Below, in pieces: positions 1,855 to 63,129 of a stretch of 64,000 bases of DNA. A model generated the notes under the pieces. It saw nothing but the letters and a program-made list of their open reading frames with translations, did no database searches and was not told the origin of the DNA. Position 1 is the stretch's first letter, and every line of letters begins with the position of its first letter. Both the position numbers and the translations under genes were made by a program. The stretch is from the NCBI GenBank assembly GCA_030695565.1, contig JAUYRZ010000123.1, positions 62,001 to 126,000 on the forward strand. The letters run 5' to 3'. The DNA is from Archangium sp. (GTDB lineage: Bacteria; Myxococcota; Myxococcia; Myxococcales; Myxococcaceae).

Positions 1855-3438
1855 TCAGCCGGTCTTGCGCCGGTGCTCGTGCCAGAGCTCGGCGAGCGTG
1901 GTGGCCAGCTGTTCGCCATCGATGGGCTTGGCGAGGTGGGCGTCGAAACCCGAGTGGAGCGCGGCGCGACGATCGCTCGAGTTGGCCAGCGCGGTGAGCG
2001 CCACCGCCGGCACCAGCTTGCCCGAAGCCCTCAGCATCCTGAGGAACGAGTAGCCGTCTTCACCGGGCATGGCGATGTCGCTGACGATCAGATCAGGCAC
2101 GTCGAGGGCGACCGCCTCGCGGGCCTCCTTCACGGTGGCGCTGGTGATCACCTGTGCGCCGAAGCGCTCCAGGGTGACGGCGATCATCTCGCGCGTGTCT
2201 CGTTGATCCTCGACCACCAGTACGCGCACCCCCCGCAGCGCCTCGGGGTCGACGTGAGGGGCTGCGACGCCCAGCTCGACGCTCACCGGTGATCGCGGGT
2301 CGGGCAACTCGATCGCCACGGTGGCGCCCTTGCCGGGCCCGTCACTGTGCGCGCTCACCGTGCCGCCATGCAGCTCGGCCAGGTGCCGCACGATGGCCAG
2401 CCCCAGGCCCAGGCCACCCTGCCGCCGGGTGGAGCTGCCGTCTTCCTGGCGGAACCGATCGAACACGTAGGGCAGGAAGCCGGGGTCGATGCCGTCGCCG
2501 GTGTCGCGCACCGTGATGCGGTGATGGTCGTTCTTCGCGGTGACCTCGACCTCGACCCGGCCCCCCGGGGGCGTGAACTTGATGGCGTTGCTCACCAGGT
2601 TCCAGACGATCTGCTGCACCCGGGCCGCGTCGCCCACCATCGGCACGCTCTGGTCGAGCCCGATGGTCAGCAAGGTGACGCCCTTGGCCTGGGCGGCGGG
2701 CCGCATCGACTCGACCCCCAGGGAGATCACCGCGCACAGCTCGAAGGGCTTGACCTCGAGGCGCAGGCTGCCGGCGATCACCCGGGAGACGTCGAGCAGG
2801 TCTTCCACCAGCTGGGCCTGCGCGCGGGCGTTGCGCTCGATGGTCTTGTAGGCGGTCAGCGCGCTCTCCCCGGTCATCCGGCCGCCCACCAGCAGCTGCA
2901 CCCAGCCGAGGATGGCGGTCAGCGGCGTCCGCAGCTCGTGCGAGACGGTGGCCAGAAATTGATCCTTCGCGCGATCGGAGGCGCGCAGCTGGGCCTCCTG
3001 GCGCTGCAGCCGCTCGAGCACGTCGCGCGCTTCGTACTGGCGGGCCCGGGCGCGTTGGGCGGCGCGCATCTGGGAGATCAAGGTGGCGATGCGCACCGGC
3101 CGATCGATCAACGTCACGTTGCCGATCTCGCGCAGCCAGGCCTCGAGGCGGTGATCTTCGCGGGCACTGCCGCTGGTGAACACCAGCACCGGGAAGTCCG
3201 ACCAGGGCGGTTGGCGGTGCAACCCGTGGAGCAGGGCGGGCACGGACTCCGGGGTGAGCGCCTCTTCGGTCACCAGCGCGGCCGCGGCGCCGCGAGCCAT
3301 CTCCGCGATCATCGCCTGCATGGAGGCACACCGGTGGGCGGTGATTCCCGCCTCGCCGAGCAAGCGCACCGACAATTCTCCATCTCGTCCCGTAGGGGCG
3401 AGCACCAGCACGCGGTGATCGGTCTGGTCGGCGTTCAT
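1855..3438 (-). CDS. Hybrid histidine kinase with degenerate N-terminal receiver and C-terminal receiver
   Basis: The protein has 527 residues. Residues 8-125 look like a receiver fold, but the usual phospho-aspartate position reads ALVTEEA, so the domain is probably not phosphorylated. A short coiled segment leads to HisKA with SHELRTPLTAILGW (His167), an N box (NLVSNAIKFT) and G boxes (DTGDGID, GLGLGLAIV). The C-terminal receiver (about 400-520) is complete, with VVEDQ, SDIAMPG, TALA and AKPI. No membrane segment is present, so it is cytoplasmic. Its ATG lies one base from the stop of the upstream KaiC-like gene, which implies co-translation and suggests the ATPase is its partner. The signal sensed is unknown. 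Confidence 0.9.
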   Translation of the reverse strand: MNADQTDHRVLVLAPTGRDGELSVRLLGEAGITAHRCASMQAMIAEMARGAAAALVTEEALTPESVPALLHGLHRQPPWSDFPVLVFTSGSAREDHRLEAWLREIGNVTLIDRPVRIATLISQMRAAQRARARQYEARDVLERLQRQEAQLRASDRAKDQFLATVSHELRTPLTAILGWVQLLVGGRMTGESALTAYKTIERNARAQAQLVEDLLDVSRVIAGSLRLEVKPFELCAVISLGVESMRPAAQAKGVTLLTIGLDQSVPMVGDAARVQQIVWNLVSNAIKFTPPGGRVEVEVTAKNDHHRITVRDTGDGIDPGFLPYVFDRFRQEDGSSTRRQGGLGLGLAIVRHLAELHGGTVSAHSDGPGKGATVAIELPDPRSPVSVELGVAAPHVDPEALRGVRVLVVEDQRDTREMIAVTLERFGAQVITSATVKEAREAVALDVPDLIVSDIAMPGEDGYSFLRMLRASGKLVPAVALTALANSSDRRAALHSGFDAHLAKPIDGEQLATTLAELWHEHRRKTG

Positions 3439-3439
3439 G

Positions 3440-4909
3440 TCATTGAGGGTGCGAAGCGGACGGCTGCGAGGACTTCGGCACGCCCGTCAGGATGCCGTGG
3501 AGGTTGCGCAGCGCGGGCCCGAGGCGAACGCCGTCTTGGGTCAGCTGGAGCTCCCGAATCGTCTGTTCGTGCGGGCCGGTGCGTTTCTTGGTCACCGAGA
3601 TCGCCCGGTGCAGCGCGCTGTCCGCCTCGTAGAGGCGCATCAGGATCACCGTGTCGGCCACGTAGGTGACGTCGACCGGGGTCTGCATGGTGCCCACCAG
3701 GCCGTGCTGGGTGACCACCAACAGGGTCGCGACGCCCTTCTGCGCCAGGTAGGTGAGGAGCTCGTGGAGCTGGATGAGCAGGAACCGCTCCTCGGGCATC
3801 GCGTTCAGGTAGCCGTTGAGGCTGTCGATGATCACCACCTTCGCGCCTGCGTCGACCGCGTCACGAATGGCGTGCGCAAACTCACCGGGCGACAGCTCGG
3901 CGGAGTCGACCTGCCGGAGCATCAGCATGCCGTTCTTCACGGCCTCTTCGAGGGGGTTGCCCATGCCGCCTGCGCGCGCCAGGAACGTGCTCACGTTCTC
4001 GTCGAAGGTGAACGCGGCCACCTTTTCGCCGCGCGCGATGACCGACTTGGCGAACTGGGTGGTGATGGACGACTTGCCGGTGCCGGCGGGCCCGATGATC
4101 ACGGTGCTGGTGCCGCGGTCGATGCCCCCTCCCAGCAGCTGGTCGAGCTCGGGCACGCCGCTGGTGATGGAGTCCCGCGCGAACTTCGAGCGGTGCTCCG
4201 CCGCCACCAGGCGGGGGAAGACCTTCATGCCGTTCTTCTCGATGATGTAGTCGTGGTTGCCGCTGCGAAAGTTCACCCCGCGCAGCTTCTGAACGCGAAT
4301 GCGCCTGCGCTCCGCCCCGTATTCAGGGGCCAGCTGCTGCAGGGTGATCACCCCGTGCACCAGGCTCTGCAGCTGGAGATCATTGGCTTCAGCGGTGCCG
4401 TCGTCGAGCAGCATCACGGTGCAGTTCCGGCCGACGAAGAACTGCTTGAGGCTCAGAATCTGCCGGCGGTACCGCAGCGCATCACCGGCCAGCAGGCGGA
4501 TCTCGGAGAGCGAATCGAGCACCACGCGCGACGGCTTGATCTCCTTCATCAGCGTCAGCATTTTCTGAATGGTCTCGTGCAGCTCGATCTCCGAGGGGTG
4601 GAAGAGCGTGTTCTGCGCCTCGTTGGCCATCGCCTCCTCGAGTGAAGAGAGCTCGAGCAGGTGCACGCCTTCGAGTGACCAGCCGTGTGATTGGGCCACG
4701 TCGCGCAGCTCTTCGGACGTCTCCGAGAGCGTCACGTAGAGCACCGTCTCGCCCCGATCGCGCCCCTCGAAGAGGAACTGCAGACCCAGCGTGGTCTTGC
4801 CCACCCCCGGTGAGCCCATCGTCAGGTACAGCCGATTCTTCGGCAACCCGCCGGTCAAGATGTCGTCGAGGCCAGGAACCCCCGTGGGGGCGATTGCCGT
4901 GGGTGTCAT
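3440..4909 (-). CDS. KaiC-like double RecA-domain ATPase
   Basis: Two KaiC/RecA-like ATPase domains lie in tandem. The first has Walker A GSPGVGKTT near residue 32-40 and VVLDSLSE as Walker B. The second has GPAGTGKSS near 270 and VVIIDSLNGY. This is the CI/CII layout of the KaiC superfamily at usual length (489 residues). A GTG at 4915 would add two residues, but the AGGGA ribosome site sits about 7 nt before the ATG at 4909, so that start is preferred. No kaiA or kaiB is present. KaiC homologues outside cyanobacteria often pair with histidine kinases, and here the stop codon is followed one base later by a hybrid kinase start. A signalling ATPase rather than a clock is the inference. Confidence 0.88.
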   Translation of the reverse strand: MTPTAIAPTGVPGLDDILTGGLPKNRLYLTMGSPGVGKTTLGLQFLFEGRDRGETVLYVTLSETSEELRDVAQSHGWSLEGVHLLELSSLEEAMANEAQNTLFHPSEIELHETIQKMLTLMKEIKPSRVVLDSLSEIRLLAGDALRYRRQILSLKQFFVGRNCTVMLLDDGTAEANDLQLQSLVHGVITLQQLAPEYGAERRRIRVQKLRGVNFRSGNHDYIIEKNGMKVFPRLVAAEHRSKFARDSITSGVPELDQLLGGGIDRGTSTVIIGPAGTGKSSITTQFAKSVIARGEKVAAFTFDENVSTFLARAGGMGNPLEEAVKNGMLMLRQVDSAELSPGEFAHAIRDAVDAGAKVVIIDSLNGYLNAMPEERFLLIQLHELLTYLAQKGVATLLVVTQHGLVGTMQTPVDVTYVADTVILMRLYEADSALHRAISVTKKRTGPHEQTIRELQLTQDGVRLGPALRNLHGILTGVPKSSQPSASHPQ

Positions 4910-5082: not shown

Positions 5083-6774
5083 TCAGTCTTCGAGGTTCTT
5101 GTTGTTGCGGCTGGTGGTGACCGGCGCAGGCGCCGACGACTTCTTCACCACCGGCACCGGGGCGGGCTTGGCCACGGGCGCCACCGCGACGGCGGCCGGT
5201 TTGGGCGCAGGCTTCGCGATCATCGGCTTGGGAGCGGGGGCGGGCCGGGGCTGAACGGCCACCTTCACGGGAGCGGGCGCGGGCTTGGGGGCAGGGGCGG
5301 CCTTCGCCACCGGTGCCGGCCTGGCCGTGGTCTTCGGGTTCGACTCCCACTTCGCCAGCGCCTCGCCGACCTTCTCGTCGAACGAACCTTCGTAGACGAA
5401 CTCCTTCTCGGGGTCGGCGTTGAGCGCAGTGAAGCCGCTCACCAGCACCTCGGCGTTCATCGGCTTCGCCCTGGGGTGATCCTGATCCTTCGCCACGAAC
5501 GAGAGGGTGCAGTGCGACGCGTCGAGGCAGTCGAGCTTCTTGAAGTCGTAGTTGAACTGCCCCTCGCAGAACGTGTCGGGGCACAGCTCGTTCAGGTCGG
5601 CCACGCGGGTGGCGAGCTCTTCGGCGGTGAAGGCGCCCTTCTTCTCTTCTCCTTCAGCGGCGGCCACGGCGGGCGCGGCGTCAGGGGTGAGCGACTTGAT
5701 GGCGAGGTCGAACGAGAAGCCGCCCTTGACCATGTAGCCGTCGCCCGGCAGCACGGTCAGCTCGTAGGTGCCGGCCTTCACGTCGACGGTGGTGACCGCC
5801 TTCGTGCCCACGTTGCCCAGCTCGTTGGCGAGCTCCTCACCGGCAGCATCTTTCAAGATGAGCTGGGGCAGGAAGCTCACCTTCTTGGCCGGCGCGATGA
5901 CGCTCAGCTCGTACTCACCGGGCTTGGTGACGGTCCACGTGTACTTCTCGCCGCTGACGCTCGAGACGGTGTCGCTGCACTGCGGGCGCGCGTCGGTGAG
6001 CTTCGACTCGCAGTACGCCGAGACCGCGTTCGGGTCGGCTTCGGGCGCGAAGATCATCGCGGGAATGGAGAGCACCGCCGCGACGCCGCCGCCGATGAAG
6101 CTGAACTTCTTCTTCTTCTGAATCGAGCCGAGCAACCCTTCGCGGCCCTTGGCCGAGGTCATCATCGAGCGCCAACCCGGCTTGACCAACGAGGCGCCCT
6201 CGAGCTTGCCGAGCACGAACAGGCTGCCTTCGACGGGCACGAACTTTTCGGTGGCCTTGAAGCCGGTGGTCCAGCCCTTGTCGCCGCCGATGACCGGCAC
6301 GTCGTACGTCAGCTCGCCGAAGTTGAGGTGCGAGGAGCCCGAGTGGCCGTTGAGCTCCTTCTTGAGCCCGTCTTTGAAGTTGTCGAAGTCGGCGCCCTTG
6401 CTGACGTCGATCTTCACGATGCCCGAGCCGTCATCGAGGCCGAAGACCGCGCCGCCCTTGAGGGTGGTGAGCGTCTCGCTGCCCTTGACGGTCTTGGTGC
6501 CATCCTGGGTGGTCTCGGTCTTCTCGTAGAGGCGCTCGATCTTCACCTCGTAGGCGAGGCAGGGCTGCTTGGTGCAGGGCGAGAGCAGCTCCTGCTCGGG
6601 GGGCACCACCTTGCCTTCAGTCGACATCGCGCCTTTGGGGTCGGGCGAGCTGGGGTTCTTGGCGATCTCGCCGGTCTTCTTGAAAGGCGCCGCCAGGATG
6701 CGTTTGCCCTTGAGGTGGTTCCACAGGCCAAAGCCCAGCACCGCGAGACCGACGATCAGCAACAAGGCACCCAT
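5083..6774 (-). CDS. GIDE/BAM-like two-helix membrane protein with Pro/Ala-rich tail
   Basis: The protein has 563 residues. The ATG at 6774 follows an ideal AGGAGC ribosome site, and the longer frame to 6807 lacks one. Residues 3-20 form a membrane segment. Residues about 65-235 carry PCLAYEVKIERLYE, GAVFGLDDGSG and FVPVEGSLFVLG motifs in the order of GIDE/BAM domains (known from MULAN E3 ligases and bacterial relatives). A second hydrophobic helix follows near 240-260. The remainder has Cys pairs, a jelly-roll-like beta region and, after about 490, a Pro/Ala/Lys-rich tail. No RING finger is visible. A close paralogue lies at the left edge. It is downstream of the caspase locus on the same strand, 73 nt after the preceding stop, and is closed by a terminator. 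The GIDE assignment rests on pattern alone; the function is unknown. Confidence 0.8.
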   Translation of the reverse strand: MGALLLIVGLAVLGFGLWNHLKGKRILAAPFKKTGEIAKNPSSPDPKGAMSTEGKVVPPEQELLSPCTKQPCLAYEVKIERLYEKTETTQDGTKTVKGSETLTTLKGGAVFGLDDGSGIVKIDVSKGADFDNFKDGLKKELNGHSGSSHLNFGELTYDVPVIGGDKGWTTGFKATEKFVPVEGSLFVLGKLEGASLVKPGWRSMMTSAKGREGLLGSIQKKKKFSFIGGGVAAVLSIPAMIFAPEADPNAVSAYCESKLTDARPQCSDTVSSVSGEKYTWTVTKPGEYELSVIAPAKKVSFLPQLILKDAAGEELANELGNVGTKAVTTVDVKAGTYELTVLPGDGYMVKGGFSFDLAIKSLTPDAAPAVAAAEGEEKKGAFTAEELATRVADLNELCPDTFCEGQFNYDFKKLDCLDASHCTLSFVAKDQDHPRAKPMNAEVLVSGFTALNADPEKEFVYEGSFDEKVGEALAKWESNPKTTARPAPVAKAAPAPKPAPAPVKVAVQPRPAPAPKPMIAKPAPKPAAVAVAPVAKPAPVPVVKKSSAPAPVTTSRNNKNLED

Positions 6775-6847
6775 TTGAAGCTCCTGGAAACGACGAGGTG
6801 GCTTCAAGACCCACAGGGCCGATCAACTGTGAAACTTTTCTCCGCAG

Positions 6848-8431
6848 CTACGGCGCGCTGAGGACTTCCTTGACGCGCTCGAGAGACTCTTTGGCCAGCG
6901 TCCCCAGGAGCGCGTCGCGCTTCTTGAGCATCGGAGCCACGTTGCACCGCTTGGCCGCGCGCGTCTCGAACACGGCGGTGAGCGACTGCACTTTCTTGAT
7001 GGTGCCGTCTTTGTTGTACGTGGCGAGGCCCAGACCTGCGCCCGTGCCCGAGGCGGCCATTTCTTTCGCAACGCACGCCTTGACCGGCTCACGCGCCTTC
7101 AACAACGCGAGCACCCGCTTGTCCTGGCTCTTCTCGAATTCCCCAATGTCTCCATCGAAGCTGATCGTCGCGACACTCATGCCCGCTGAATCGAAGGTGG
7201 GCGCGCTGGGCAACACCACCTTGTTCGGCGCCTGGGTGGTGAACCAATCATCAGCCGGGCTCTTCTTGCGGCTCTCGTAATATTCGTCGCGCTCCTCCGA
7301 AAACGTCGGCTCGACGACGTCGCCGTTGACGCGAAGCACCTTCCGGTCGTTGAGCAGCAGCACGGGCTCACCTGGTGCGAGCGGCGCGTATTTCTCGCCA
7401 CCACGCTCCCCGGTGACCGGGGTCTCGGCGCGGGCGAACACCACGAACACGCGCGGAAGTTTCGTGAAGGCCGCGACCGCGAAGTTCAGGCCGCCACCGT
7501 CATCGTCGTAGCCAAAGGCCGCGAGCGTGCGGCCCGAGGGCTTCGAGGCCTGCTCGGGCTTCGCGATGACCAGCTCTTCGATCGAGACCGCGGCGCCTTG
7601 CTTCGAGAGGGTGGCCACCACCGCGCCGGGGCTGCCGCGCAACCAGACGTCGTCTCCGTCGGCCAGGCTCACCGCGATGGCGCCTCTGGTGTCCCGCGGA
7701 ATGAGGTCGCACTGCTCGATGGAAGAGGCCCCCGCGCAATTGACGAACTCGAAGAGGGCATCCGGAACGTTGGGGCGGGCCGCCGTCAGCACGAAGTCGG
7801 TGAGAGGCGCGCCCTCGACCAACAAGCGGGCGCCTTCTTTGCCGAGCGTGAAGGCCGCCGAGCGGCGATTCTCGGTGCCGAACACCAGGGTCTGCGTCGG
7901 CAGGTTCTTGCCTCCGTCGAAGGCCTTCGACGCCAGGTTCGCAGAGGCGGCGCTGAGCTCTTCCTCCCGGCTGCACACCGGGTACGCGGGCTCGTCGGAG
8001 CGCAAGCGCGAGCAGAACTGACGCATCGACTGCTGCGCCTTCGCTGCCGTCGCGGCGTTCGGGTTGGCTTTGTACGCGGTGTAGTCCTCCTCCATCGCGA
8101 GCGCAGCTCTGGCGGCCGAAAGGCGCTTGTCGGCCCTGGTGAAGATCTCCAGTCGGGTGAGGTACGCCGCGCGCTGGTTCTCGCCCACGTCAGCGGGTAC
8201 CCAACCTGAACTGAGCCGGGTGAAGCGCGCTCGCGCCAACTCGACGTCAGCGGCGAGACTGTTGATGCGCTGGTTGAGGGCTGCGACGGTGAGGTCGTTT
8301 GGCGTCAGTGCTGACTGCTGTTGCGAGACCCTCCCGAGGCGGTCGACCGCGGCATCTTGTTCAGCGGGCTGCGCTGCGCGGGCGGAAGCAGCCAGAACCG
8401 ACATCACGATGACGCAGGGGAGAAGTCGCAC
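6848..8431 (-). CDS. Secreted protein of unknown function (caspase operon)
   Basis: About 527 residues with an N-terminal signal peptide (hydrophobic LLPCVIVMSVLAA then ASARAA). A helical, Ala/Arg-rich region (about 30-130) is followed by a beta-rich part, and several Cys are spread through it. The C-terminal 120 residues have a compact KACVAKEMAASGTG...RCNVAPM pattern. No family is recognised. Two GTG codons are adjacent (8434 and 8431). The AGGAG ribosome site is 5 nt from the second and only 2 nt from the first, so 8431 is chosen. The start is 8 nt after the stop of the caspase-like gene, so the two are co-transcribed and the product is likely exported alongside it. Confidence 0.75.
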   Translation of the reverse strand: MRLLPCVIVMSVLAASARAAQPAEQDAAVDRLGRVSQQQSALTPNDLTVAALNQRINSLAADVELARARFTRLSSGWVPADVGENQRAAYLTRLEIFTRADKRLSAARAALAMEEDYTAYKANPNAATAAKAQQSMRQFCSRLRSDEPAYPVCSREEELSAASANLASKAFDGGKNLPTQTLVFGTENRRSAAFTLGKEGARLLVEGAPLTDFVLTAARPNVPDALFEFVNCAGASSIEQCDLIPRDTRGAIAVSLADGDDVWLRGSPGAVVATLSKQGAAVSIEELVIAKPEQASKPSGRTLAAFGYDDDGGGLNFAVAAFTKLPRVFVVFARAETPVTGERGGEKYAPLAPGEPVLLLNDRKVLRVNGDVVEPTFSEERDEYYESRKKSPADDWFTTQAPNKVVLPSAPTFDSAGMSVATISFDGDIGEFEKSQDKRVLALLKAREPVKACVAKEMAASGTGAGLGLATYNKDGTIKKVQSLTAVFETRAAKRCNVAPMLKKRDALLGTLAKESLERVKEVLSAP

Positions 8432-57677: not shown

Positions 57678-58754
57678 TTATTTCTGCTCAGCGCCGGGCG
57701 GCGTCGTGGGCAGCGTCACCCTGAACAGCGCCCCGCCGGTGGGTGCCGCGTGGGCCGACGCGTCGCCGCCGTGGGCTCGGGCTGCGTGCTGCACGAAGGT
57801 GAGCCCCAGCCCGCGGTTGTTCCCGCGAGTGTGACTGGTACCGGGCACGACCTGCGCGTACTTCTCGAAGATGCGCTCCCGTTCCTCGGGGGGAATGCCC
57901 GGCCCGTCGTCGGCGACCTCGAGCACCACCTGCGAACCCTCGTCGCGCACCGACACCTTCACCAGATGGGCTTTGCGCATGGCGTTGTCGATCAGGTTCT
58001 CGAACACCCTCAGTACGAGATCGGGGTCCAGCAAGGCCAGCACCGGCTCTGCGGGCAGCTCGAGCACCAGTTTCACTTCGCGCGCGCGGGCGACCGCTCG
58101 TGCCAACCCGACCGCTTGGGTCGCCTTCACACACAGGTCGACAGGTGCGACCGAGACGGGGAAGGAATTGGTCTCGAGCCGCGAGCTGTCCATCAAGTTG
58201 GTCAGCATCGAGTGCATCTGCCGGGCCGCCTCCAGGCTATCCCCGACCGCCTCTTTCGCGTCGGCGTCGTCTCGCACCACCGAAGAGAGATAGCTCAGGT
58301 TCGAGGTCATCACCGACAGCGGGCTCTTCATGTCGTGAACGATCATTTGCCCGAGCGTCTCGCGCATCACGGACACCGAGCGCTCGTGCGACACGTCGCG
58401 GATCACCAGCAGCCCATACGGGCGCGCGTCGGCCTCGAACGAGCTGAGCTGCACGTGCACCTCGCGCGGCGTCGCCAGGAACGGAAATGGAAAGGAGATC
58501 TCTGCTTCGGCCGAGAGCGGGCCTTTCCCGATGCGCTCGCGGAACTGTCCTGCCAGGTGCGGCACGTCCATGCAGTAGCCGTGCACTCTGAAGAAATCGG
58601 TCCCCAGAACGGACTCGCGGCGGCGTCCCGTAAGCAGCTCTTCGACCCGGTTGTAGACGACGGCTCGACCCGCGGCGTCGAGCACGATCACTCCAATTGG
58701 CAGGCTGTCGACCAGCCGCGAGAACAATGAGAGCTGTGCGTCAGGCTCGTCCAC
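57678..58754 (-). CDS. Photoactive yellow protein (PYP)-domain histidine kinase
   Basis: 358 residues, GTG start after GGAAG. The N-terminal PAS domain (about 10-120) aligns without gaps to PYP at a constant offset of 8: Tyr34, Glu38, Thr42, Arg44 and Cys61 match PYP Tyr42, Glu46, Thr50, Arg52 and the chromophore-bearing Cys69. Further matches are GxIxLD, the YN pair, TGR, VLGTDFF and the CxDxP turn. PYP binds p-coumaric acid through that Cys and senses blue light. The kinase core follows: HDMKSPLSVM (phospho-His), ENLIDNAM, DDGPGIPPEE and GLGLTFVQ. No membrane helix is present. No regulator or chromophore-making gene is adjacent. The kinase call is firm; the light-sensing call is strong inference. 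Confidence 0.85.
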   Translation of the reverse strand: MDEPDAQLSLFSRLVDSLPIGVIVLDAAGRAVVYNRVEELLTGRRRESVLGTDFFRVHGYCMDVPHLAGQFRERIGKGPLSAEAEISFPFPFLATPREVHVQLSSFEADARPYGLLVIRDVSHERSVSVMRETLGQMIVHDMKSPLSVMTSNLSYLSSVVRDDADAKEAVGDSLEAARQMHSMLTNLMDSSRLETNSFPVSVAPVDLCVKATQAVGLARAVARAREVKLVLELPAEPVLALLDPDLVLRVFENLIDNAMRKAHLVKVSVRDEGSQVVLEVADDGPGIPPEERERIFEKYAQVVPGTSHTRGNNRGLGLTFVQHAARAHGGDASAHAAPTGGALFRVTLPTTPPGAEQK

Positions 58755-58942: not shown

Positions 58943-59758
58943 TCAGCGAACGATGCGCCGGTAGCGCGCTTCGATGAACGTCATCACCCCGTAGGCCACG
59001 GTGCCCGCGGCGACCAGGCCCAGCAGCAGGTCTCCGTGCCACTGGGTGCCGATCACCTTGAGCGCCTGGCCCATGTCCTTCACCTCGCGTGCGCTCACGT
59101 TTCGCGCGGCGCGAATGAGGAACCAGCCGACGATCCAGAAGGTGACCCCGCGCGCGCTGAAGCCGAAGCGGCCGATCACCCCGACCCAGCCCTTCATCGA
59201 CGGGCTCATCGCGGCCATGTCGAGGTCCTTCTCGAAGCTCATCGACCAGGCCCGGTAGAACTGCTCGAAGCCCACCCCGATGACGATCGCCCCTGCGATG
59301 GCCACGGCATAGACGCCCAGCGGCTCGATGAGCGCGCGGGCCACCCACGAACGCACCGAGCTGCCGGGCACGGTGATGGCCACGCCCGCGGCGGTGGCCG
59401 CCAGGCCGAGGTGGAGAAAGCCGCTGATGAGGAAACCCAGCCGGGTGGCCAACGCCGGGAGCCCACGGCCCTTGCGATCGAGATCCTGAATCGCCTGCAC
59501 CACGCGCCAGACGGCGAAGGCGACCAGCCCCAGTGCCAACACGACGAGGAGCGGTTTGCCCGCCTGGAGCCGGCCCACTTCAGCGACCGCGCCTCGGGGA
59601 TCGGTGGTGCTGCCGCCCGAGCCCATCGCGGCCAACACGGCGAGCACGCCCACCATCACGTAGAGCGCCCCGCGCGAGACGAGGCCCACGCGCGCGATGG
59701 GTTCGATGAGCGGGCGGCGTTTCATCGTGCTCTCACGGTTCTTCAGGAGCGTGGTCAT
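58943..59758 (-). CDS. DUF1206-like integral membrane protein
   Basis: About 271 residues from the ATG at 59758; an ATG at 59725 is an alternative. Six hydrophobic helices come in three similar pairs, each opening with an R.G..SRG(A/V) phrase: RVGLVSRGALYVMVG, TRLGFLISGFLHLGL and GRFGFSARGVTFWIVG. This triplicated pattern is that of the DUF1206 family, whose function is unknown. The residues between pairs (FRAWS-, EKDLDMAAMS) are polar. It is divergent from the gene at 59860. Confidence 0.82.
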   Translation of the reverse strand: MTTLLKNRESTMKRRPLIEPIARVGLVSRGALYVMVGVLAVLAAMGSGGSTTDPRGAVAEVGRLQAGKPLLVVLALGLVAFAVWRVVQAIQDLDRKGRGLPALATRLGFLISGFLHLGLAATAAGVAITVPGSSVRSWVARALIEPLGVYAVAIAGAIVIGVGFEQFYRAWSMSFEKDLDMAAMSPSMKGWVGVIGRFGFSARGVTFWIVGWFLIRAARNVSAREVKDMGQALKVIGTQWHGDLLLGLVAAGTVAYGVMTFIEARYRRIVR

Positions 59759-61014: not shown

Positions 61015-63129
61015 ATGCGATCCCCCCGCGCTGCCACAGTGCCCGGTCTCGTGGCTGCACGCTCCCAAAGACCCGGATTGACTGGCGCCATCATCATCGT
61101 GCTGCTGGTCGCCTTGTGCGTGCTGGTCGCGGTGCTCTTCGTGGTCGTGCCCAGCCAGGCAGACACCTATCTGACCGACACGCTCTGGGAGCGCGGCAAG
61201 GCCGTCGCCAAGGAGATCGAACGGAAGGTGCCCATCGTCGCCCGCGACGGCCTCGACACCGAAGCCTCCGCCGAGGTGAACAACATCGTCGGTGGTGAAC
61301 GCGCGATTCGAAACGTCTGGGTGCTGGCGTGTTCGGGCCAATGCCTGCCGGAAGACGTGATGGCCCAGAGCGCCGATACCGCGCTGCACACCACGCAGAC
61401 CGTGCTCAAGCAGTTCAACGAGCAGGAGCAGCACGTGCAGATTCAGCTCGAGTCGGGCGAGCTGCTGGTCGCAGACCCCGTGCAGCTCAAGGGTGGCCTC
61501 AAGGGCTTCGTGCTGGTCTCGCTCGATCGGGCGCGCATCGACGAGGGCCTGGCCAGCCTGCGCAAGACGCTGCTCATCGCGTTGATCGTCAGCGTGCTCA
61601 TCTTCATGGCGCTGGTCGGCGTGCTCTCCCGGCTGCTGATCATCGCCCCGCTGGCCACCATGCGCGCGATGGCCATGCGGCTGGCGGAGGCCGATCTCTC
61701 CGGCCGCGTCGAAGGGGCGCCCACGCGCGAGCTCGACGAGCTGGCCGAGTCGCTCAACAGCATCGGCCAGGGCCTGCGCGACACCCTGGGCCGGGTGCGC
61801 GGCGTGGCCGAGAGCGTGGCGCAGGTGATCGACCAGATCTCCCGCAGCGCGTCGACCACCACCAGCGGCGCCTCGACCGTGCTCACGCGCGTGGAAGAGA
61901 CCTCGAGCGCGATGGTGGAGATGCTCAGTAGCCTCAAGGGCATCGCTGAGAACGTCGAAGTGCTCTACCAGTCGGCGGAAGAGTCGAGCTCCAGCATCAT
62001 GGAGATGTCGACCACCAACGACGAGGTGGCGGCCAACGTGCAGAAGATGGCGGCGTCGGTGGAAGAGACGACCTCGGCCATCGAGCAGACCACGTACTCC
62101 ATCAAGGAGGTCGCGCGGAACGTCGAGGACCTGCTCAAGAACACCGAGACCACCTCGTCCTCCATTCGCGAGATGGACATCGCCATCGGCCAGGTCGAGA
62201 CCAACGCGTACGAGACGGCGCGGCTCTCGGAGCAGGTGTCGAAAGACGCCGAGACCGGCATGGAGTCGATCCAGAAGACGATCGTCGGCATCGACCGCAT
62301 CAAGGAGTCCAGCAAGACGGCCTCGAGCGTGATCGAGCAGCTGGGCCGGCGCATCGGTGAGATCGGCAACATCGTCGACGTGATCGACGACGTGGCGGAG
62401 CAGACCAACCTGCTCGCGCTCAACGCCGCCATCATCGCCGCGCAGGCCGGTGATCACGGCAAGGGCTTCGCGGTGGTCGCCGATGAGATCAAGGATCTCT
62501 CGGAGCGCACCGCGGCCTCGACCAAGGAGATCGCCGAGCTCATCCGCGCGGTGCAGTCGGAGTCACGCAACGCAGCGACCGCCATGAACACCGGCGTGCG
62601 CTCGGTCGAAGAAGGCGTGGTGCTCGGCCGGGAAGCCGAAGGCGCGCTGCGCAAGATTCAGGAGTCCGCCAAGAACTCCACCCAGATGGTCAAGGCCATC
62701 GCGCGCGCGACGGTCGAACAGGCGCGGGGCAGCAAAGACGTCACCGCCGCCGTCGAGCGGGTGCGCGACACCATCGAGCAGATCAACAAGGCGACCAACG
62801 AGCAGGCGCGCGGCTCGGAGCAGGTGATGAAGGTGGCCGAGCAGATGAAGCTGCTCACCCAGCACGTGAAGCGCTCGGTGGAAGAGCAGAGCCACGGCGG
62901 CAAGCAGATCAGCCGCAGCATCGAGAACATCAACGAGATGGTGACGCACCTGAACCGCGCGCAGAAGGAACAGACGCGCGGTACCGAGCAGGTGCTCAAG
63001 GCGATCGAGACGATCCGCGCGGTGGCCGATCAGCAGAACCGGTCGGTCATTCAGCTCGAAGAAGCGATCGAGACGCTGCGCAATCAGGCCGACGTGCTCA
63101 GAGGCGAAGTCCGCCGCTTCCGCGTGTAA
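61015..63129 (+). CDS. Methyl-accepting chemotaxis protein
   Basis: 704 residues from the ATG at 61015. The first helix (about 25-46) and a second (about 185-207) bracket a periplasmic sensor domain of about 140 residues with a Cys pair (LACSGQC). A HAMP segment follows ([20 protein letters not shown], in part). The cytoplasmic domain is one very long coiled coil of heptads, and its tip is [20 protein letters not shown], the receptor-kinase contact that defines MCPs. The coil is longer than in many receptors and rich in Glu/Gln methylation-like pairs. No che genes are adjacent, so it signals to a remote cluster. Confidence 0.95.

Follow-up and report, generated by a model that had tools for sequence, protein, structure and literature searches.

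A divergent photoactive yellow protein-type sensor domain fused to a histidine kinase in the myxobacterium Archangium sp.

The N-terminal domain of a 358-residue histidine kinase of Archangium sp. is a divergent PAS domain of the photoactive yellow protein (PYP) family, as sequence comparison, trees and predicted fold together show. The gene lies in the window, by which we mean the whole 64,000-nucleotide stretch of DNA that was analysed. We consider that the protein is probably a soluble, blue-light-responsive sensor histidine kinase, in which the strand preceding the chromophore-binding cysteine departs from the PYP consensus.

Domain architecture

Pfam divides the product of the open reading frame into a PAS domain (residues 11-120), HisKA and HATPase_c, all above their cut-offs (Table 1). 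The phosphoacceptor histidine and the N, G1, F and G2 motifs of HisKA sensor histidine kinases are all present, and these motifs together with the codon-position GC content (0.71/0.44/0.84, the GC3 of 0.84 being a coding profile) show the frame to be a genuine coding gene with an intact kinase. A G-rich/AAG stretch is found immediately 5' of the GTG start. Hydrophobicity, averaged over 19 residues, peaks at only 1.49, in the PAS core, so that the kinase is predicted to be soluble and to lack a membrane segment. Asp120 of the PAS domain and His140 are separated by 20 residues, a spacing that is identical in two related proteins, L088 and L090 (see below).

The earlier note on this DNA had proposed that a sensor of the PYP family is joined straight to a possibly soluble kinase in a myxobacterium-like genome, and this reading is borne out. 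With only PAS, HisKA and HATPase_c in its 358 residues, the protein has no phytochrome module and falls outside the PYP-phytochrome fusions Ppr and Ppd; an N-terminal PYP followed by HisKA/HATPase_c is instead the arrangement of the minimal PYP-kinases (PMC12826048).

Table 1. Positions in the window of the kinase gene, its domains and pocket codons, and nearby genes
Feature	Position	Strand	Basis or remark
PYP-type sensor histidine kinase	57678..58754	(-)	358 aa, GTG start
PYP-family PAS domain, residues 11-121	58392..58724	(-)	Pfam, phmmer, alignment, trees, predicted fold
Signalling helix (predicted), residues 122-138, joint from PAS to HisKA	58341..58391	(-)	
HisKA dimerisation/phosphoacceptor domain, residues 132-195, His140 in HDMKSPL (at 140)	58170..58361	(-)	Pfam and motif
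HATPase_c, residues 243-351, with N (ENLIDNA, 252), G1 (DDGPGIP, 282), F (FEKY, 296) and G2 (GLGL, 315)	57702..58028	(-)	Pfam and motifs
Tyr34 codon, PYP Tyr42, chromophore hydrogen bond	58653..58655	(-)	Alignment
Glu38 codon, PYP Glu46, proton donor	58641..58643	(-)	Alignment
His58-Gly59-Tyr60 in place of near-invariant PYP Val66-Ala67-Pro68	58575..58583	(-)	Alignment; consensus in PMC12826048
Cys61 codon, PYP Cys69, thioester to p-coumaric acid	58572..58574	(-)	Alignment
DUF1206 membrane protein, upstream	58943..59758	(-)	188-bp gap to the kinase; no sign of a link
Methyl-accepting chemotaxis protein (HAMP and MCPsignal)	61078..63129	(+)	2.3 kb from the kinase

Identity of the sensor domain

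In a phmmer search of the PDB, every PYP entry (best E 4.6e-13) outranks the first non-PYP match (E 0.3), and residues 13-102 of the kinase align without gaps to PYP residues 21-110. The constant offset of 8 claimed for the domain therefore holds for this core; beyond about residue 103 the claim fails, since a small insertion is required (the AF2 model pairs residues 13-121 with PYP 21-125). Cys61 is aligned with Cys69 by both phmmer and MAFFT, which makes the domain a PYP homologue with Cys69 in the sense of PMC9664959, and Tyr34 and Glu38 provide the Tyr42 (or Phe) and Glu46 (or Gln) that characterise the family. The phmmer alignment likewise pairs Thr42 and Arg44 with Thr50 and Arg52, as had been proposed. 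As evidence for PYP, however, these last two residues are weak and not family-diagnostic, since PMC12826048 gives Ala50 and Leu52 as the consensus and Ala50 is also found in L088, the closest relative.

The suggested PYP profile search (TIGR02373) also detects the domain, making it the genome's third PYP (E 8.7e-16), but at 60.7 bits, which is below the cut-off of 143.05 bits and places it outside the classical-PYP equivalog. The score is also lower than that of almost every other PYP of the order (about 64-115 bits). No PYP among 145 genomes of the order attains this cut-off, and PMC9664959 puts the share of known PYPs that the model captures at about 20%.

Fifty-four further PAS domains encoded in this genome served as a control: none carries at least two of Y/F42, E/Q46 and C69 (43 have none of them and 11 have one). 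Three trees, in which PYPs outside the Leptospira/Salinibacter clade B are compared with other PAS domains, group the window domain within PYP and apart from the other PAS domains (100/98*, 98/99* and 99/98*). The predicted fold agrees: the AF2 model of the PAS domain, built from a four-sequence alignment (pLDDT 85), finds PYP or PYP-derived structures as its top 37 PDB entries in VIA-align (Z 13.8-16.0), ahead of the best other PAS domain (13.3).

Chromophore pocket

The nine-residue PYP pocket (I31, Y42, E46, F62, V66, A67, P68, C69, F96) is a consensus and not invariant (PMC12826048). Six of the nine residues match in the window domain (I31, Y42, E46, F62, C69 and F96), and the other three are replaced (V66H, A67G, P68Y), so that the sensor domain had been overstated as complete. 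Among the 36 other PYPs of the order, Cys69 is preceded by V-A-P in 28 and by I-A-P in eight, and H-x-Y occurs in none. Within the PYP-kinases, H-G-Y of the window kinase and H-A-Y of L088 contrast with an unaltered V-A-P in L089 and L090, which suggests, most simply, that the change arose inside the PYP-kinase lineage. The His-x-Tyr-Cys proteins make up a new sub-lineage with an unusual pocket variant, and their strand offers a naturally occurring way to learn what PYP can lose from its pocket. Speculatively, the His58-Gly59-Tyr60 strand may tune colour or recovery rate.

The same substitutions could alternatively mark a PYP-family kinase that has abandoned light sensing and responds to another small ligand, or to a redox signal via Cys61. 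The replacement of three of nine pocket residues, the alteration of the same strand in L088 and the lack of a dedicated p-coumaric acid ligase (see below) are in line with this, and neofunctionalisation of PYP domains has been proposed (PMC9664959). We nevertheless regard such a loss as rather unlikely, because Cys69, Glu46 and Tyr42, which are held to be essential, are all retained in both the window kinase and L088 at 65% identity, and because a canonical PYP adjoins the L088 kinase. Moreover, the redox role proposed for some methylobacterial Ppr proteins concerns cases in which Cys69 itself is lost (PMC9664959). Overall, light sensing by the window kinase appears likely.

Relatives among Myxococcota

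A search of 84,980 species genomes yielded three related PYP-kinases, all in other Myxococcota genomes: L088, L089 and L090, with 65%, 43% and 39% identity to the window kinase (38-66% in the PAS region). Cys69 and Glu46 are present in all four proteins; at position 42, where Tyr or Phe occurs throughout, L089 has Phe and the other three have Tyr. L090 and genome G010 of the search within the order are one record; the PYP-kinase there (L090:5965-7031) has a frame break within the kinase part, which is either genuine or due to faulty assembly.

The four PYP-kinases form one clade in two trees (96/92* and 99/99*), which was not recovered in the tree with a smaller outgroup. They are basal in two trees and the base is unresolved in the third (98/99*), while the 99/98* tree has long outgroup branches; for these reasons we make no claim on the root of the PYP tree. 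Myxococcota have been proposed as the origin of PYP (PMC9664959), a proposal on which the window lineage bears. It is conceivable that the Myxococcota PYP-kinases are early-branching and still show PYP as it arose, as the sensor of a PAS-histidine kinase before single-domain PYPs split off, and that the His-x-Tyr-Cys strand supports a photocycle unlike any described; we hold this to be decidedly doubtful.

The kinase of L088 is intact by family match. In L089 (L089:2273-3367 (+)), the phosphoacceptor His is replaced and the ATP-site motifs are lost, so that its PYP domain, with Cys69 and Glu46 retained, probably sits on a dead kinase. This relative, PYP triad (Phe42) included, could indicate a light sensor that acts chiefly by contacting or modulating a second kinase or some other partner instead of by its own phosphorylation, and the window gene is indeed adjoined by no regulator. 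For the window kinase, which has all catalytic motifs, as does L088 by family match, such an output is very improbable.

Gene neighbourhoods and chromophore supply

The window kinase is flanked by the DUF1206 membrane protein and by a putative Ser/Thr kinase gene; no response regulator, lyase, ligase or other p-coumaric acid gene is adjacent, and no neighbourhood conserved with the relatives was seen. Elsewhere in the window, a KaiC/RecA-type ATPase-like frame (3440-4909) was noticed by eye beside a possible signalling protein (1855-3438; together 1855-4909 (-)).

A linkage of PYP to kinases is evident in the relatives. Directly upstream of the L088 kinase, and in the same orientation, lies a canonical PYP gene (L088:5121-5810 (+); Tyr42, Glu46, VAPC), with 187 bp between its end and the kinase Met at 5998. 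In G129, a genome that shares its family with the window genome, a PYP gene and the beginning of a PAS-kinase gene overlap by 4 bp on contig C677 (L175: clade C-like PYP 7753-8142, PAS-kinase 6590-7756, both (-)). Together with the fusions, these cases show that PYP and histidine kinases are linked by fusion and neighbourhood in this group. The canonical PYP gene upstream of L088 is new, as is the relative with a degenerate kinase (L089). Two further observations concern these loci: a V4R-like frame, recognised by eye, lies at L088 4265-4633 on the strand opposite to the canonical PYP gene, and the G129 contig with the overlap also holds another receiver-kinase, the closest kinase-domain match.

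By TIGR02373 the genome holds two PYP domains besides that of the window kinase: a single-domain PYP with Phe42, Glu46 and Cys69 (contig C55, L092:8274-8687 (-)) and a PYP-V4R fusion with Tyr42, Glu46 and Cys69 (contig C123, L093:7878-8927 (+)). A PF00221 search finds two lyases: HutH, whose selectivity loop is SHAAG, and an aromatic lyase on contig C17 that has YHGVG there. At the end of contig C38 lies an AMP-ligase that carries an ApeI-like dehydratase domain. The earlier statement that the window contains no ammonia-lyase or ligase is right in that none lies beside the gene, but says little with both enzymes present elsewhere in the genome. The two loci (L095:8345-10916 and L094:120-7344) resemble an aryl-polyene cluster apparently split between the ends of C38 and C17. 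Since lyase and ligase genes are about 3 kb apart in relatives (e.g., G058 and G059) and co-occur in 44 genomes, they probably form one cluster here, broken by the contig end. The recommended genome search found a lyase other than HutH and an AMP-ligase, neither of which is a proven tyrosine ammonia-lyase (TAL) or p-coumaroyl-CoA ligase (pCL). The nearest named models of the lyase, bagremycin/ferroverdin TAL and HutH, both score below cut-off, and no match over the cut-off of TIGR02372 (dedicated pCL) occurs in the 145 genomes. Neither the lyase (18 of 35 PYP genomes, p 0.11) nor the ligase (13 of 35, p 0.53) co-occurs significantly with PYP, and a literature search on aryl-polyene lyases gave no useful result.

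Proposed mode of action

Judging by residue identity and conservation in the relatives, p-coumaric acid would be bound to Cys61 through a thioester, with Tyr34 and Glu38 forming hydrogen bonds to it. By analogy with the biochemistry of PYP and PAS-kinases, light would isomerise the chromophore, Glu38 would protonate it and the PAS core would rearrange. The change may then be relayed through the helix that starts at residue 122, reach His140 and shift the balance of kinase and phosphatase activity, the phosphate passing to an unlinked response regulator.

In favour of such a light-sensing kinase we count the PDB ranking, the TIGR02373 match, the trees, the triad control, the fold, the relatives, the intact motifs and the adjacency of PYP and kinase in L088 and G129. 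Against it we count H/G/Y at 66-68, the 60.7 bits, the lack of a pCL over cut-off, a lyase and ligase that do not track PYP, the lack of an adjacent regulator or p-coumaric acid gene and the loss of kinase output in L089. An ordinary PAS-kinase resembling PYP by chance, to which the generic PAS label of Pfam, the generic kinases among the best NCBIfam models and the unattained TIGR02373 cut-off could point, is scarcely credible and was rejected on the in-genome control (0/54) and the trees, the PDB ranking and relatives speaking against it as well and Pfam assigning PYPs to generic PAS or PAS_4 regardless (PMC9664959).

Comparison with known systems

Sensor and kinase are combined here in a single soluble protein of 358 residues, roughly the minimum with which signalling from PYP to a kinase could be examined in vitro. 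To our knowledge, the single-domain PYPs, which are the great majority, have no known partner, and PYP signalling is for this reason an old open question. The host is a non-photosynthetic myxobacterium that encodes a PYP-family sensor kinase.

Ppr of Rhodospirillum centenum (PDB 1mzu) likewise bears a PYP at the N-terminus of a histidine kinase, and its PYP fold matches that predicted for the window domain (Z 15.6), but Ppr has a phytochrome module and V-A-P-C, and the window kinase has neither. With the single-domain PYP of Halorhodospira halophila (P16113), the window domain has in common Tyr42, Glu46, Thr50, Arg52, Cys69 and the ungapped core; it differs in its fusion to a kinase, in V66H, A67G, P68Y and W119Y, and in having no linked TAL or pCL genes. 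LOV-histidine kinases such as YF1 (PDB 4gcz) offer a functional parallel, with a blue-light PAS domain, a signalling helix and HisKA/HATPase; LOV, however, binds flavin and is a separate PAS family, of which we do not claim the window kinase to be a member.

The closest counterparts are the minimal PYP-HisKA-HATPase proteins, compared here by their described architecture, an N-terminal PYP followed by the kinase domains without a phytochrome. Fifteen have already been reported (PMC12826048), and our literature search found no report of a characterised one. In the window kinase, whose lineage may be among the 15, Cys69 is preceded by the H-G-Y strand. As these 15 proteins and a myxococcal origin of PYP (PMC9664959) are already published, the window kinase is an additional member of a known group, with a notable variant of the chromophore pocket.
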